DNA of 64,000 bases from a bacterium. GTDB lineage: Bacteria > Hydrothermota > Tepidihabitantia > Tepidihabitantales > Tepidihabitantaceae. The notes under the pieces are model-generated. The model was not told where the DNA came from. It did no database searches and saw only the letters and a program-made list of their open reading frames with translations. The position numbers were made by a program, and so were the translations under genes. Of this stretch, positions 20,500-63,911 are shown piece after piece. The stretch spans positions 1 to 64,000 of the forward strand of contig DATJQV010000083.1 in NCBI GenBank assembly GCA_035505375.1, written 5' to 3'. Within the stretch, counting starts at the first letter, position 1. The number at the start of each line of letters is the position of its first letter.

Positions 20500-20688
20500 C
20501 TGGAATCCGCCGCAGGATAAGCAGGCCCGGTAGTCGGCCTCGGTCGCCGAAACAGGCGGCTCTTGGGGCTTGGAATCCGGCAGAGCAGGTCACTGATAGC
20601 AATCGGTGCGGCTGGGCGAGCCCAAGGTCACATAACTAACCGCAATGTGCCATGTTAGGTACCGTACGGCTCGTCTGATTCGACCTTC

Positions 20689-20988
20689 CGGGAACCACGG
20701 CGGGAACCGTCCCGGGAACGGTTCCCGGGGTGGTTCGGACCGTGGTTCTGGACCCGGTTTCCGGCGCGAGTCTGACCGCGAATTCCATCGCGTCTGGGAG
20801 TGTGGTTCGCGGGCAGAATGCCACTGTGACTTGGAAGTTGAGTCGAAGCGCGATTGGTAGAACCTCTGCCACGGCGACTTGGAAGGTCTGTTGCAGGGCC
20901 TCTCGCGGTTCGACTTGCGGGTCGGTTTCCGACGCGGTTTGCGAGGTGAGTCGTGCCGCGACCTGCGCGGCGAGTCGCAGAGTTCGAT
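20689..20988. repeat. Degenerate 12-bp tandem array 1 (25 units)
   Basis: Between the convergent ends of the LVIVD gene (20499) and the bS22-like gene (21135), 300 bp divide into 25 consecutive 12-mers. Most fit five variable bases followed by G-Y-G-R-N-T-Y, for example GCGAGGTGAGTC, GCGCGGCGAGTC and CCGACGCGGTTT. Units at either edge (20677, 20989) are weaker. The minus strand is open across the whole array with a four-residue rhythm (RKPR RKPT RKSN). The rest of 20500-21134 shows nothing recognisable. Confidence 0.75.
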
Positions 20989-21134
20989 TCCAAACCAGGC
21001 GTCGGCCAGTCGGTAGAGGGGAGAGGCAAGGCAGAAGCCGGGGCGCATGAGGCGTCCCGGCTGAATCAACTTAGGGCCAGGCGTTTCGCACAGTGGAACA
21101 GGGCAGGTCCCGTTCCTAAGAAGCCGTCACCGGA

Positions 21135-35895: not shown

Positions 35896-35947
35896 CTCCG
35901 AGTCGCGGGTGCCGATGCCCGATGCCCTTGCCGCGCCGCAGCGGGCT

Positions 35948-36235
35948 GAGCGGCCCGGGAGGCAATTCTCCGAGCAAACCGGAGAGCAACGGCCGGAGCT
36001 ACCTCGGGACCAACCCGGGCAGGAACCCGCGGACTTACCCGGGCTGCAACGCTCCGACCAACCCGGAGAGGAACCGGTGGAGCAACCCGTAGACTAACCC
36101 TAAGAGCAAGTCGGAGGGCAACCGGTAGACCAACCCGGCGAATTCCGGTGGAGGTTCATCCGGAAATTGCGGTGGAGATAACCCCTCGGGCTATGTCCCA
36201 ACCAATCCCTTAAGCTACCCTGTGGGTAATCCCCT
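35948..36235. repeat. Degenerate 12-bp tandem array 2 (24 units)
   Basis: Between the convergent ends of the GH20 gene (35895) and the beta-helix gene (36628), 288 bp split into 24 consecutive 12-mers close to GAGCAACCCGGN, for example GAGCAACCCGTA, GACCAACCCGGA and GGGCAACCGGTA. Position 6 is A in 20 of 24 units. Read from 35948 the frame has a four-residue rhythm (DQPG QEPA DLPG) but is broken by TAA codons, twice in unit 13. Confidence 0.8.
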
Positions 36236-36396
36236 GGGCGGGGGAGTCGATTCGTGAGCCTCAAGCCTAAAGCCACAAGCTGCAAGCAGATACGCCGAAG
36301 AGCCGGTCCGGACCAATTCTACGACGTTGTAGATTTCGCTCCGGCCGCTAATCGGAAAGGCCGACTGCAGTTTGCGCTTGCGCTGGTTAAGGAGAA

Positions 36397-38291: not shown

Positions 38292-38500
38292 CTCGGGGCC
38301 GTTTGGTTTCTGAGGCAGAACCTCGGCGCGCCGCCTCGCCGCAGGCTCACAGACGTGCAGGAAATGCACACCAGTGCGCAGTGGGGAGAGACGACAGTAG
38401 ACGGCAGAGAAAGGACAGAGGACGAGGGACGGGGGCTGATGACGGATGACTACGGACCAAGGACCGTGGACCAGGGACTATGGGCTGGGGGCTTTGACGC

Positions 38501-58768: not shown

Positions 58769-58933
58769 GGACTCCGTAGCGCCAGATAGGCGGCGGCGCA
58801 GGTCGCCAACCACATAGTGGCGCTGAGTGGTCGTCAAGGTGATGACAGCGCGGAGGCACGCGTGAAGTGTTGTGCTTGGGATCGCTATTGGGCCTGTAAT
58901 CCAACAAGCTCTTTCCAAAATCGGGCCGTGAGG

Positions 58934-61372
58934 ATGAGGATACTCCTATGCGCAGCTGCGCTGCTTCTCGGCGCGAGCGTCGGGTGGGGCTTGCCGGTGC
59001 CAGATACAATCCTGCTGCCGGACTCGCTGGGGCCGCTGCGGCCGGGCTATCATCTGGCCTTCGGCAGTTCAACGGACAACATCTACGTCGCGAGTGAGTC
59101 GTCGGACATCATGGTTGTGGATGGGAACACCTTCCAGCGCATCAAGCGCATCCATACCGGCACGCCGGTCGGAGGTGCGCTGCTCGTCTCCCAGCACAAC
59201 CGGCTATACTGCTCGTATCCCAAGCAGGGCCGCATCGGCGTCATTGACTGTGCGACGAACACTGTGATTGGTACGATTCCGGTCGGGACGTGCCCGACGT
59301 CGCTCTGCTACAGCACAAGCAGCGACAAGCTCTATTGCAGCGACACCATTGACTGCACGGTATCCGTAATAGACTGCGCCGATGACGTAGTCATGAAGGC
59401 TATTCACGTCGGCAACGGCCCGACGGCTATCGCCTATGAACCGACCACCAACAAGTTGTATGCAGGTACTCCGGATGCGCTCCTGGCGGTGTCCTGCTCA
59501 AGGGACTCCATCATCGCAACTATCTCTTCTGTCAAAGGCGCAAGGGGTCTGTGTGTCAACAAGCATCTCCAGAAGGTGTATGTGGCGGGTGTAGATAGTG
59601 CGTACACATGGACCATGAGCGTGGTCTCCGCCGTCTCAGATTCACTGTTAACCAGCGTGCCGGCTGGTGGCAACGTATTCCCTCGCCTGGTCTGCAACGA
59701 GGTCACAGACCGACTATATGAAGCAGTCAACAGCGGTTCTGAAATATGTGAGTTTGACTGCGTGGGAGATACCTACACTCGGGTTGAATCCATGGGCGGT
59801 CTCTTCGTGGCGCGAGGCCTGGTTAGTGACTCTGTCAATAACCGGTTGTACTACCTGCTGGACGGAGAGGTCGTTGTGATGGACTGCGCGAGCATGCGGG
59901 GCAAGTACGTAATCCTGGTCAACGGATATCTTGCCACCTTTGAAATAGACCCAGCCCGGTACAGGGTGATGTTCGCAGGCGGAAACTGGGAGAGTGTGCT
60001 GACGGCGCTCGACTACAAGGGTGACAGCCTTCGTGCAGTGGGCGGTGCGCCGCTCTGCGGCTGGAACGGCAAGCCGTGCCGCAACACTGCTGAAGGTAAG
60101 TTGTACTACTGGTGGGGACCGCTGGCAGGCGGCCTTGGTGTGATAGACGAGCAAACCAAGCGTGTGATCAAGCTGGTTTCCATGCCCCAGGCTGCCAGCG
60201 ACTTCCTGATATACAGCCGGCTGAGCAACAAGCTCTATTTCCCAGTCATGCTTGGTCCCTGGCACGGACAGACAGGCATCGGAGTGATGGACGGGTCGAT
60301 GGATAGCCTCCTTAAGGTCATCGAGTTCGGAGACGGCCACCCGCCAAGCGTTTTCTGCTATTGCCCGGAGGATGACAAGACGTACTGGAGCGTGTATGGC
60401 GGTGCCCGCACATATGTCGCTGCCGTGGACTGCCGGAGCGATTCTGTCGTATCGAAAATGGACGTCTCCTATCCAGTTGACGGGATGCAGTACCTTGGGA
60501 ATCACCATCTGCTCCTTTGGGAGAAGAACGAGCGGCTGATCCTACTCGACAGCCGCACCGACAGTGTTTTGGTCGACAGCGCAATGTCTGGCATATGTGC
60601 GGTCGCGCACACTGGCGACGGCGAGAAAGTCTATGTCGTCCGCGGCCACAGGCTGGAGGTCCGGGGTTCCAATTCGTTGGACTTGCTTGCGACCGTTGAC
60701 TGGGTCTACGACCGGGCCGTGGATCCGTTTCTCATGTGCGCTGATTCTACTAGCAGGCTCTGCTGGTTCGTGCGGGATCAGTTTCCGATCGGACCGGATA
60801 GCGTTCTGACGATAGATACACACGGCGATACTGCAGTTGGGCGGCTGGGCGTAGGCTTCATGCAAGCGCAGGGCTGCTTGGACCACTCCGGTAGGTATGT
60901 TCTAAACCCCGACCCTGCGAACGACTACTACCAGAATCCTGACTCCAACAGCTTGATCATCTATGATACGCAATCCGACAGTGTGGCGGCTATCTATGGG
61001 GATCTGCCAGTTCCCAATTCTGTCACTCCGAATCAGAAACTGCACCGCATCTATGTCGGGTGTCAGGACGTCATGCTTGTATACCCCGACGCACCGCCTG
61101 GAGTCCAGGAAACGCAGAACGCCAAAGTGCGACCGACGAAGTGCGGCCCCACAGTCGTGCGCGGAGTGCTTGTTCTCGACGCAGTGGACAGCAGACAGCA
61201 TGCAGCACAAAGGGCGGATCTGCTGAATGTTGGTGGGCGGAAGGTGATGGACCTGAGGCCGGGCGCGAATGATGTGCGGGCGCTGGCACCGGGGGTGTAC
61301 TTTGTCCGGGAAGAGCCCCAAGCCGCAAGCTCCAGACCGCAGGCTGTCCGGAAGGTTGTGGTGGCGAGGTAG
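58934..61372 (+). CDS. Secreted YVTN-like beta-propeller protein with sorting module
   Basis: An 812-residue exported protein. The signal peptide (RILLCAAALLLGASVGWG) supports ATG 58934; the in-frame GTG at 58817 is less likely. Residues about 30-740 are propeller blades that alternate N-KLYC-or-Y with V-VIDC elements (NRLYCSYPKQGRIGVIDCAT; DKLYCSDTIDCTVSVIDCAD), unusually rich in Cys. The C-terminal module GRKVMDLRPGANDVRALAPG, then VYFVR, is nearly identical at DNA level to those ending at 16636 and 20499. The repeat-coded loop EEPQAASSRPQAV separates the last two strands. Probably surface-anchored. Confidence 0.82.
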   Translation: MRILLCAAALLLGASVGWGLPVPDTILLPDSLGPLRPGYHLAFGSSTDNIYVASESSDIMVVDGNTFQRIKRIHTGTPVGGALLVSQHNRLYCSYPKQGRIGVIDCATNTVIGTIPVGTCPTSLCYSTSSDKLYCSDTIDCTVSVIDCADDVVMKAIHVGNGPTAIAYEPTTNKLYAGTPDALLAVSCSRDSIIATISSVKGARGLCVNKHLQKVYVAGVDSAYTWTMSVVSAVSDSLLTSVPAGGNVFPRLVCNEVTDRLYEAVNSGSEICEFDCVGDTYTRVESMGGLFVARGLVSDSVNNRLYYLLDGEVVVMDCASMRGKYVILVNGYLATFEIDPARYRVMFAGGNWESVLTALDYKGDSLRAVGGAPLCGWNGKPCRNTAEGKLYYWWGPLAGGLGVIDEQTKRVIKLVSMPQAASDFLIYSRLSNKLYFPVMLGPWHGQTGIGVMDGSMDSLLKVIEFGDGHPPSVFCYCPEDDKTYWSVYGGARTYVAAVDCRSDSVVSKMDVSYPVDGMQYLGNHHLLLWEKNERLILLDSRTDSVLVDSAMSGICAVAHTGDGEKVYVVRGHRLEVRGSNSLDLLATVDWVYDRAVDPFLMCADSTSRLCWFVRDQFPIGPDSVLTIDTHGDTAVGRLGVGFMQAQGCLDHSGRYVLNPDPANDYYQNPDSNSLIIYDTQSDSVAAIYGDLPVPNSVTPNQKLHRIYVGCQDVMLVYPDAPPGVQETQNAKVRPTKCGPTVVRGVLVLDAVDSRQHAAQRADLLNVGGRKVMDLRPGANDVRALAPGVYFVREEPQAASSRPQAVRKVVVAR

Positions 61373-61413
61373 GGCAACAAGAAGACAGAATACCGTAGAC
61401 AGAATACAGGTCA

Positions 61414-61435
61414 GGGGCGGGCGAAAGCCCGTCCC
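61414..61435 (+). terminator. Hairpin terminator after the secreted propeller gene
   Basis: GGGGCGGGC-GAAA-GCCCGTCCC forms a 9-bp stem (one G-U) with a GAAA tetraloop, about 40 nt past the stop codon. Confidence 0.6.
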
Positions 61436-61480
61436 GTCTGTCAGCGGGGACGGCAAGGCGCGGCATGCCAACATGGTCGG

Positions 61481-61600
61481 TTCTCACGGAGAACGATGAG
61501 CGATGAGCGCGGAACGATGAACAACGGGCACGAGTGATGGCAGGGCCGGTTGAGACGATGCTGACGGCCGACAGCCTACGGCCTACAGCCTGCAGTCAGC
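61481..61600. repeat. GAACGATGAGCGATGAGCGC and CAGCCTACGGCCTACAGCC repeats
   Basis: Two low-complexity repeats lie between the terminator and the 12-bp array. Region 61601-61782 shows nothing recognisable. Confidence 0.5.
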
Positions 61601-61782
61601 GCATCCTGACGACATAGCAGGCGGTTCCTGACGCGCAGGAGGGCGGATTTCGGGTTCACCGAAAGCTCGAAAAGAACCGAGGGTTTAGTGATTCTCTCCG
61701 GCAGAGCATAACTTTAGCACGCTCAGTTGGTTAGCCCTCATCGTGTTGCGGAGAGTCCGCATATAGGGGTCGCCTGGGGGCT

Positions 61783-62082
61783 AGCCTTCGAAGGAGCGTT
61801 CGAAGAAGCCATGAAACAAGCCTTGAAATGAGCTTTGAGTTGAGCTTTCAGGGGAGCTTTGACCCGAGCCTTCGACGGAGCTTTCAGGCAAGCGATGTGA
61901 GAAGCGATGCGCTGAGCTTTGAGACGAGCGATGCGCGAAGCGATGTCGCGAGCATTGAGATGAGCGATGGAAGAAGCGATGAAGTAAGCCTTCGAGTAAG
62001 CGTTCTACGATGCTTTCCAGCGAACTCTGTAGCGAGCTTTCTAACGAGCTTTCAAGGGAGCTCTAAGAGGAGCAATGAGGAG
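61783..62082. repeat. Degenerate 12-bp tandem array 3 (25 units)
   Basis: Exactly 25 consecutive 12-mers fill 300 bp between the convergent ends of the propeller gene (61372) and pstB (62259). Typical units: AGCTTTCAGGGG, AGCGATGCGCGA, AGCCTTCGAAGG, AGCTTTGAGACG. AGC opens 23 of 25 units, position 6 is T in all 25, positions 7-11 vary freely and position 12 is a purine. One plus-strand frame stays open through the array (S-F/D-x-x repeating every four residues). The 62083-62258 stretch has further low-complexity repeats. Confidence 0.85.
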
Positions 62083-62258
62083 AGGGACGAAGGATGAGTG
62101 ATGAAAGAGGAAGACGGGCAATTCAGAATTCAGAGACCAGAATGCAGAGCACTCCGAGAATGGAGCACTCGACCACGGATGAACACAGCGCGGCCTCGGA
62201 GGCCGCAACCAAACCCGAGGTAACCGCAGATGTCGCAGGTGAGGCGGAGGCGGGATGT

Positions 62259-63008
62259 CTAGCCGAAGCGGCCAGAGATGTAGTTCTCGGTGTCGGTTTC
62301 TTTAGGGTTAGTGAAGATCTGCTTGGTCGTGCCGAACTCTTTGAGCACGCCGAGCATCATGAAGCCCGCATAGTCGGAAACGCGGGCCGCCTGCTGCATG
62401 TTGTGGGTCACGATGACGATGCAGTACTCCTTGGCGAGGCCGCGCATCAGTTCCTCAACGTGGAGCGTGGCGATGGGGTCGAGAGCGGAGCACGGTTCGT
62501 CCATCAACAGCACCTCGGGCTCGACCGCGAGCATGCGGGCGATGCAGAGCCGCTGGCGCTGTTCGTCGGTGAGGCGGAGTGCGCTCTCGTTCAGTTTGTC
62601 TTTGACCTCGTCCCACATATGCACCGAGCGGAGGCAGCGTTCGACGATGGCCTGTAGTTCGGAGCCGTTGTTGGTGCCGTGGACGCGCGGACCGTAGGCG
62701 ATGTTGTCGAATACCGTGAGCGGGAATGCGTTGGGGCGCTGGAAGACCATGCCGACGCGCTTGCGGAGGTCGAGCACGCTCAAGCCATAGACGTCGCGAC
62801 CGTCGAGCAGGATTGAGCCCTTGATGCGTGCGCCGTCCACGAGTTCGTTCATCCGGTTGAGGCTGCGCAGCAGGGTTGACTTGCCGCAGCCCGACGGGCC
62901 GATGATGGCGGTTATCGAACGGCACGGGAAGGCGATGGATACCGATTTCACGGCCTGGAAGGTGCCGTAGAAGACGTCGAGGTTCCGAGTTTCGAGTTTG
63001 GTATCCAT
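62259..63008 (-). CDS. pstB: Phosphate ABC transporter ATP-binding protein PstB
   Basis: A 249-residue ATPase. [20 protein letters not shown] is the PstB start. Walker A is [20 protein letters not shown], the Q-loop [20 protein letters not shown], Walker [16 protein letters not shown] and the H-loop [19 protein letters not shown]. The ABC signature is degenerate: [16 protein letters not shown] instead of LSGGQ-QRLCIARA. The end [16 protein letters not shown] is typical of PstB. It powers high-affinity phosphate uptake with PstA encoded upstream and a second ATPase between. Confidence 0.93.
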
Positions 63009-63087
63009 TTTAGATTTTGGATTCTAGATTTTGGATTGCCTGATTGCCGTCCACCAATCTAAAATCGAAAATCCTAAATCTAGAATC
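63008..63087. repeat. AATCTAAAATC-family inverted repeat between the two pstB genes
   Basis: TTTTGGATTCTAGATTTTGG (63011-63030) faces AATCTAAAATCGAAAATCCT (63057-63076), giving a hairpin of the same family that brackets the four-helix-bundle gene at 3460. Confidence 0.7.
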
Positions 63088-63089
63088 CC

Positions 63090-63911
63090 TCATCCGATTC
63101 TCCCCGAGACGTAGTCGTCGGTGCGCTTCTGTTTGGGCTTGGTGAATATCTGCGCCGTTGCGCCTTCTTCTACCAGGTCGCCGGACAGGAAGAACGCGAC
63201 ACGGTCGGAAACGCGGGCCGCCTGCTTCACGTTGTTGGTCACCAGCACCCAGGTGAACCGGGTCTTCAGTTCCCGCATCGCATTCTCAATCTGGGCCGTG
63301 GATATCGGGTCGAGCCCGGACGTCGGCTCGTCCATCATGATGACCTCGGGGTCGACCGCGACGGTACGGGCGATACAAAGGCGCTGTTGCTGGCCGCCGG
63401 AGAGGCGTAGGGCAGACGTGCTAAGGCGGTCCTTTACCTCGTCCCAGAGCGCGGCGGCGCGCAGGCTCTGTTCGACCACGTCGGCGATTCGGGACTTGCG
63501 CAGCCGGGCCTTGAGGCGCGGGCCGTAGGCGACGTTGTCGAAGATGGTGCCGGGAAGCGGGACCGGTGTGGCGAATATCAGTCCGACCCGGCGCCGCAGG
63601 ACGTCGACGTCGAGCTTCTTGACTTCCGTGTCGTCGAGCAGGACGTCTCCGGAACGGAGCAACTCCCGCTGCGTCTCAATCAGGCGGTTGATGACGCGGA
63701 GGAGCGTGGTCTTGCCGCTGTGGGCCGGGCCGATGACGGAAACGATGGTATTGGCCTCGATGTCGAGATTCACGCCCTTCAGTATCAGGCTCTTGTTGAC
63801 CGCGACCGCGAGGTTGCGGATGGAGATCTTAGGGGCAGGTTGAGGTCCAGGTTGAGGTTGAGGCATGGGGCTTCCAGAACCAGGCTGAGGTTGAGGTTGA
63901 GATTCAGGCAT
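63090..63911 (-). CDS. pstB: Second PstB-like phosphate ABC transporter ATP-binding protein
   Basis: A 273-residue ATPase with Walker A as GPAHSGKTTLLRVINRLIET, an intact signature LRLSGGQQQRLCIARTVA, Walker B VIMMDEPTSGLDPIST and the PstB-like end TDDYVSGRIG. The H-loop region reads LVTNNVKQAARVSD: the switch His seen as VTHNM in the other copy is replaced by Asn. The first 27 residues (MPESQPQPQPGSGSPMPQPQ) are Pro/Gln-rich and encoded by a CAGGTTGAGGTTGAGG repeat (63835-63905), so the true start may be downstream. Divergence from the neighbour suggests a heterodimeric ATPase pair or separate regulation. Confidence 0.85.
   Translation of the reverse strand: MPESQPQPQPGSGSPMPQPQPGPQPAPKISIRNLAVAVNKSLILKGVNLDIEANTIVSVIGPAHSGKTTLLRVINRLIETQRELLRSGDVLLDDTEVKKLDVDVLRRRVGLIFATPVPLPGTIFDNVAYGPRLKARLRKSRIADVVEQSLRAAALWDEVKDRLSTSALRLSGGQQQRLCIARTVAVDPEVIMMDEPTSGLDPISTAQIENAMRELKTRFTWVLVTNNVKQAARVSDRVAFFLSGDLVEEGATAQIFTKPKQKRTDDYVSGRIG

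Follow-up and report, generated by a model that had tools for sequence, protein, structure and literature searches.

Cyanobacterial STRR sequences are heptamers repeated directly in intergenic regions, and most intergenic repeats in bacteria are either palindromes or short identical units in tandem. In the STAR elements of staphylococci, whose repeats are GC-rich, both the number of units and the spacers vary, and we know of none with a conserved leader and a strict 12-bp register. Iteron and partition arrays (e.g., parC of plasmid R1 and tubC of pBtoxis) consist of a few near-identical tandem sites of 11 to 12 bp beside plasmid rep or par genes and are bound by a cognate protein, typically one with a gene close by, and the CsrB/RsmZ sponge RNAs, a few hundred nucleotides long and present in few copies, hold about 20 protein-binding GGA motifs in hairpin loops and end in a terminator. 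TAACTGA repeats, for which a role as binding sites has been suggested, are intergenic heptamers of Beggiatoaceae, Cyanobacteria, and Bacteroidetes in which one fixed heptamer is present in 2 to 43 copies per set (PMC4679880).

The array described here, from a 64,000-nucleotide stretch of a WOR-3 genome (the window), appears from its sequence to fit no described system that we found, and a literature search returned nothing on such arrays in WOR-3. Its likeness to the TAACTGA repeats (PMC4679880) is limited to being intergenic and multicopy (26 copies); unlike them, its units are 12 bp long and non-identical, follow a conserved leader, and form an array of near-fixed length. STAR elements (PMC3532100) are interspersed intergenic direct repeats, as is the WOR-3 element. 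In how it may work, and in that respect only, the element is comparable to iteron and partition arrays, with tandem sites spaced for a DNA-assembling protein, but its units are degenerate and number ~24, and its ~26 copies are dispersed over the chromosome with no consistent neighbor. Functionally, its nearest counterpart would be an iteron, partition, or titration array; it is not classed as one because its units are not near-identical. For a reading as RNA, the corresponding functional comparison is with CsrB/RsmZ, which it matches in length and motif number; unlike those RNAs, it lacks hairpins and a terminator, and its units are strictly phased. Unlike a CRISPR array, it has no identical repeat and no unique spacers, its 12-mers being contiguous and degenerate. 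For MITEs, which have defined ends, terminal inverted repeats, and target duplications, the relevant observation is that the copies of the element vary at their ends and that their flanks do not align.

A dispersed intergenic element with phased 12-bp units

The array makes up the 3′ portion of an element that is dispersed, intergenic, and noncoding and that is composed of a leader, a junction, and ~24 phased units of 12 bp. The element is about 400 to 410 bp long, and its own genome (G000, 3.6 Mb) contains about 26 copies: a DNA search with positions 61640 to 62110 recovered 26, most of them full length, at 74 to 85% identity. Gene calls around the copies place them between genes, in either orientation. 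In the window, all parts of the element lie on the plus strand. A 5′ extension (GGCGGATTTCGGGTTCACCGAAAG, 61640 to 61667), which occurs with indels in many, but not all, of the genome's copies, precedes a leader of ~91 bp (61668 to 61758) in which the leader alignment identifies the blocks AAAAGAACYG, TAGYG, CATAAC, GGTTA, and GTCG. The junction (61759 to 61782), consisting of GCATATAGGGGTCGCC (61759 to 61774) and a GC-rich link, TGGGGGCT, into unit 1, is near-invariant in the 26 copies. The array itself comprises 24 units of the form AGC-N-W-T-S-N-R-N-N-R (61783 to 62070) that are collinear with the other copies, and the matching interval measures 288 nt in 25 of the 26 copies and 300 nt in the remaining one. 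Units 25 and 26 (62071 to 62094) are fading and lie beyond the homology common to most copies. A sequence-only reading of this DNA had started the feature at 61783, which leaves out the conserved leader and junction directly upstream (61668 to 61782), and had treated 25 units, or exactly 300 bp, as its extent; this is not a natural boundary, in that the homology among copies weakens beyond about unit 24, and unit 26 (AGGGACGAAGGA) half-fits the unit pattern.

The count of 25 units of 12 bp at 61783 to 62082 nonetheless holds for the window, as confirmed by the units themselves and by lag identity, which is 0.63, 0.59, and 0.61 at lags of 12, 24, and 36 versus 0.10 to 0.29 for the rest of the lags up to 39 and does not fall off with distance. 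All units differ. Within these 25 units, C3, T6, and a purine at position 12 are each present in 25, A1 and G2 in 24 each, and AGC is whole in 23, in agreement with the earlier description of AGC openings and terminal purines; the invariance ascribed to T6 applies to the window copy, but not across the dispersed copies, where T6 varies. Only positions 1 to 3, 6, and 12 are near-constant. Positions 7 to 11 are less free than had been thought, with C or G at position 7 in 24 of 25 units and A or G at position 9 in 23; position 5 is similarly restricted (A or T in 23), and the free positions are 4, 8, 10, and 11. An A at position 5 is always paired with a G at position 7 (ATG), and a T with C or G (Fisher P = 0.005), dividing the units of the window copy into two submotifs. 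The array is not a chance pattern, since the three-unit pattern AGCNWTNNNNNR has 257 matches in the 3.6-Mb genome versus 0 for the reversed control, and shuffled sequences contain no arrays at the threshold of the census.

Eight copies (L034, L035, L037, L041, L042, L045, L054, and L055) share a further upstream stretch of up to ~500 to 630 bp. In the copies inspected, this stretch includes a second 12-bp array ~170 to 520 bp upstream, with units of GCYGTTNCGG or GCNGGAACG, that is apparently preceded by a conserved stretch of its own (TTGCATCAGTAGGGATGTTATG). Two related loci (L015 and L030) have AGCWWTGNNNCG-type 12-bp units and a different upstream sequence in place of the leader.

Constraint after dispersal

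Substitutions are distributed unevenly across unit positions (Kruskal P = 7.5e-11, 20 copies), and heterozygosity at positions 1 through 12, computed over 21 copies, is 0.15, 0.07, 0.03, 0.26, 0.16, 0.07, 0.15, 0.29, 0.37, 0.32, 0.25, and 0.20. The effect of reading frame was evaluated against a null in which the 678 substitutions in 20 copies were redistributed over columns sharing both unit position and base. In frame +0 (AGC-NNT-NNN-NNR), the synonymous fraction is 0.316 versus 0.307 ± 0.006 under the null (z = 1.3), and there are 25 new stops versus 15.8 expected (z = 2.9); the same holds in frame +1, for synonymous changes (z = −0.3) as for new stops (z = 2.8). Stops fall below the null in frame −1, but this frame is not coding-like because synonymous changes are also fewer. 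Before the unit-position null is applied, frame +0 looks like a coding sequence, with a raw pN/pS of 0.53. Protein coding was rejected in every frame: most copies have stops in all of them, and synonymous changes do not exceed this null.

The AGC frame, previously noted as open, is open in the window copy, but 13 of the 26 copies have 1 to 3 stops in it. The inference that the pattern is the reverse of protein-level selection stands, in that positions 3 and 6, both third codon positions, are among the least variable and synonymous changes are not in excess; when the 20 dispersed copies were searched for the contrary pattern, a conserved protein with synonymous changes dominating, it was not found. 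The same comparison supports the original placement of the constraint at the DNA or RNA level, and the way in which the array is made may contribute to the pattern. Core sequence and register are shown to be constrained after dispersal at the nucleic-acid level, and selection on the element at this level is well supported.

Changes confined to single copies, in counts that are small and that ignore the tree of copies, fall at positions 1, 2, 3, and 6 in 18 of 107 cases versus 35.7 expected (P = 1e-4), with 10 of the 107 at positions 1 to 3. By the same counts, T6 is not depleted (8 changes seen versus 8.9 expected), and it accounts for 1 of 70 shared variants. The AGC constraint thus looks to persist in single copies, and T6 looks to be guarded mainly in the propagating lineage.

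Array subfamilies and other periodic arrays

Among the genomes compared, all of which are metagenome assemblies, the element and its junction are present in all six of the genus. A leader model built from sequence only has 26 matches in G000, 9 to 24 in each of the five other genomes of the genus, 4 weak ones (E values of 2e-6 to 3e-4) in a second genus (G008), and no match in the 11 further genomes searched within the family; in a survey of 65 genomes from the class, arrays of the AGC pattern hardly occur outside the genus. Phage and plasmid collections contain no match by DNA similarity, and occurrence of the element in phages or plasmids was rejected on this basis. The four-unit AGC pattern matches at least 120 viral contigs, but most of these matches are near-identical simple repeats (AGCCATAGCCAG, for example) that lie largely within long open frames, indicating that the AGC pattern alone is not diagnostic.

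The unit motif differs among subfamilies, and the 12-bp step is constant. Following the same leader, units are AGCNWTSNRNNR in G000, G001, and part of G003, GCAATGNNNNGW in G002 and part of G003, ACGNCNNNNGRW along with GGTTGA runs in G005, YATGATGACGGC or AGCTTTTGANNG in G004, and AGCNNNTTCCGR in one G008 copy. Lag-12 identity is 0.42 to 0.67 in 58 of the 59 copies measured, versus 0.22 to 0.28 at other lags, the exception being one G008 copy (0.36). In one G004 copy the units number only about 16, and two leaders, L114 (G001:C130) and L170 (G004:C67), are without an evident 12-bp array, possibly representing array-less or broken copies. Some copies in the element's own genome have units 2 to 4 swapped in register for GGTTAAGG runs, GGTTAA/GGTTGA runs have been exchanged into arrays, and one copy with the GGTTAAGG swap is apparently at an orthologous site in another species, as judged from short flanks. 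By synteny of such flanks, nearly all copies occupy different sites in different species, with one apparent exception. On the leader-sense strand, most arrays are rich in purines, with a share of about 0.53 to 0.62 in the AGC, GCAATG, and ACG subfamilies; the AGC arrays of G004, at 0.46 to 0.51, are not purine-rich.

Repeat arrays in the element's own genome are dominated by periods of 12 and 7. Autocorrelation over 464 kb (400 kb of stretches picked regardless of elements, plus the window) detected 21 arrays of period 12, 10 of period 7, 2 of period 6, and 1 each of periods 8, 21, and 28, versus zero at the same threshold in third-order Markov shuffles of the 464 kb. The density of one period-12 array per ~22 kb extrapolates to about 160 genome-wide. 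A larger sample of 1.2 Mb, partly picked around elements, has 41 such arrays, the census covering about a third of the genome; their spans, which the extension rule causes to overshoot slightly, fall mostly into groups of about 225 to 270 bp (largely family C) and 307 to 357 bp. Several period-12 families exist that are unrelated at the DNA level, and a unit motif common to all of them was rejected, performing no better than permuted columns. Arrays of 12-bp units also occur in other genera, with 4 in 100 kb of G007, 2 in G008, and none in G006 or G031.

Family C (AGCWAYCCGGAG) is a second dispersed 12-bp family, about 230 to 270 bp long, with 11 copies in the 1.2 Mb, among them one in the window (35942 to 36246) and L204, L138, L218, L124, L208, and L216. 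In this family, copies exchange a module of ~32 nt, with register kept, either for a repeat of the 7-bp unit TGTCTAC or for a form that is longer by 12 nt. The third 12-bp array of the window (20684 to 21001, GGGAACGGTTCC-like) lies 185 bp downstream of a gene with a C-terminal sorting-type domain. Such WOR-3 genes precede 12 of the 41 period-12 arrays in the 1.2 Mb, compared with 3.7 on average and 10 at most for random intergenic positions (300 trials), an enrichment of about threefold that includes the AGC copy of the window, whose upstream gene of this type encodes 851 amino acids (58817 to 61372). Degenerate intergenic arrays of period 7, the second commonest class (10 in 464 kb and 18 in 1.2 Mb), include one in the window at 38373 and are similar in style to cyanobacterial heptamer repeats. 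Downstream of the element, an imperfect AT-rich palindrome (63008 to 63085) lies between two phosphate-type ABC ATPase genes on the minus strand (62259 to 63008 and 63090 to 63911); its sub-threshold matches to Rfam miRNAs are surely spurious.

Readings of the element

The array is plausibly, if with somewhat less than an even chance, a series of phased sites at which a putative protein would align itself along DNA every 12 bp. The element would act as DNA, its leader serving as a site where one or more putative proteins assemble at fixed spacing and its array as ~24 evenly phased degenerate sites, with AGC-N-W-T as the core in the AGC subfamily. A putative sequence-reading protein would pack side by side at 12-bp steps, as in iteron, partition, or titration arrays; the motif would drift or be replaced while the reader protein co-evolves, and the step would be kept because adjacent protein units touch. 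Chromosome organization, titration of a regulator, and maintenance of the element are candidate outputs. This reading is supported by the collinearity of the 26 copies and their near-fixed array length of 288 nt, by the uneven substitution across unit positions that is visible even in single-copy changes, and by the combination of motif change at a constant step, in-register segment replacement, and recurrence of the same step in unrelated arrays. It is also supported by a leader of fixed spacing with no conserved RNA structure or unusual folding: the 47 to 48 leaders from seven genomes align over about 91 to 95 nt with one single-base gap (L043), have conserved blocks (including GCATATAGGGGTCGCC) at fixed spacing, and contain stops in all six frames, and RNAalifold finds 3 pairs in their alignment, none covarying. 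Against it, a step of 12 bp does not equal a whole number of B-DNA helical turns, such that neighboring sites would be rotated around the helix, and T6 is not depleted in single-copy changes.

A relationship to replication polarity was rejected. Local GC skew, within about 4 kb, agrees with element orientation in 20 of 25 copies of the genome itself and in 13 of 16 others, but over 20 to 60 kb the agreement fails (14 of 24, P = 0.54). The lack of a genome-scale orientation bias, such as might accompany a chromosomal role, also counts against the reading as phased sites.

It is doubtful that the element specifies a noncoding RNA, in which case the leader would be a promoter or regulatory region and a transcript of ~300 nt, starting at about GGGGTCGCC, would present ~24 weakly structured protein-binding motifs as a CsrB-like sponge or RNP scaffold. 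The fixed spacing of the leader, without RNA structure, is that of a regulatory region, and the purine richness of most arrays on the leader-sense strand is as for an unstructured transcript, but the AGC arrays of G004 lack this property. Moreover, positions 61300 to 62300 contain no sigma-70-like promoter and no intrinsic terminator (WOR-3 promoters may differ), and searches of copies from several subfamilies against Rfam 15 returned no match at the leader or array, even at E values of ≤0.5 to 1. Folding, which the sequence-only reading had proposed to check for a regular helix, is not unusual relative to shuffled sequences in the array, leader, or junction. Hairpins seen by eye at the junction disappeared after shuffling tests, and a tRNA-like D-arm in the leader (GCTCAGTTGGTTAG) is not conserved in the leader alignment. 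The leader would seem to behave as DNA read at fixed spacing and not as folded RNA.

An unlikely alternative is a self-propagating noncoding repeat with little host function, spread by ectopic duplication or by a transposition-like process that needs the leader and array in cis. Scattered intergenic copies in either orientation, their differing sites between species (save the one apparent exception), and the additional upstream sequence in eight copies are consistent with propagation, and the protection of T6 in shared variants, and not in single-copy changes, partly favors it, as expected of a constraint acting on the propagating lineage only. Yet positions 1 to 3 are still depleted in single-copy changes, the ends of copies are variable rather than defined, and the element encodes no protein, there being stops in every frame.

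That the array is an unselected by-product of repeat formation, through slippage or templated repeat synthesis, is improbable. The many degenerate period-7 and some period-6 arrays indicate that some repeat-generating process is active, and GGTTAA/GGTTGA runs have entered arrays, but substitution in aligned copies is far from uniform over unit positions, identity does not decay with lag, diverged copies keep array length and register, and a conserved leader accompanies the arrays. A decayed or hidden coding region of tetrapeptide repeats is very improbable: the period is a multiple of 3, frame +1 reads A-[F/L/M]-x-x, and some other arrays of the genome are protein-like (e.g., S-[D/Y/E]-L-P in L206), but every copy in the genome has 6 to 14 stops in frame +1, in which the most variable unit position, 9, falls on a second codon position, frame +0 has the excess of stops and lack of synonymous excess given above, and there is no Pfam match.

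In the WOR-3 arrays, register and unit core persist even as the units diverge in sequence, and arrays of one genome that are unrelated in sequence have the 12-bp step in common. If the reading as phased protein-binding sites is true, they would represent an undescribed nucleoprotein assembly of 12-bp pitch in an uncultured phylum; if the element instead propagates itself, it would be a noncoding repeat of a new kind, one that is copied despite lacking defined ends. More tentatively, the WOR-3 lineage may possess a general nucleoprotein system for reading DNA (or RNA) at intervals of 12 nt, with the ~160 intergenic arrays per genome, which belong to unrelated sequence families, share one pitch, and mostly span 225 to 360 bp, as its sites. 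The leader-bearing AGC element would then be the best-defined class of these chromosomal sites, and the system would be the bacterial analog of satellite-like binding arrays, with stronger selection on pitch than on sequence.
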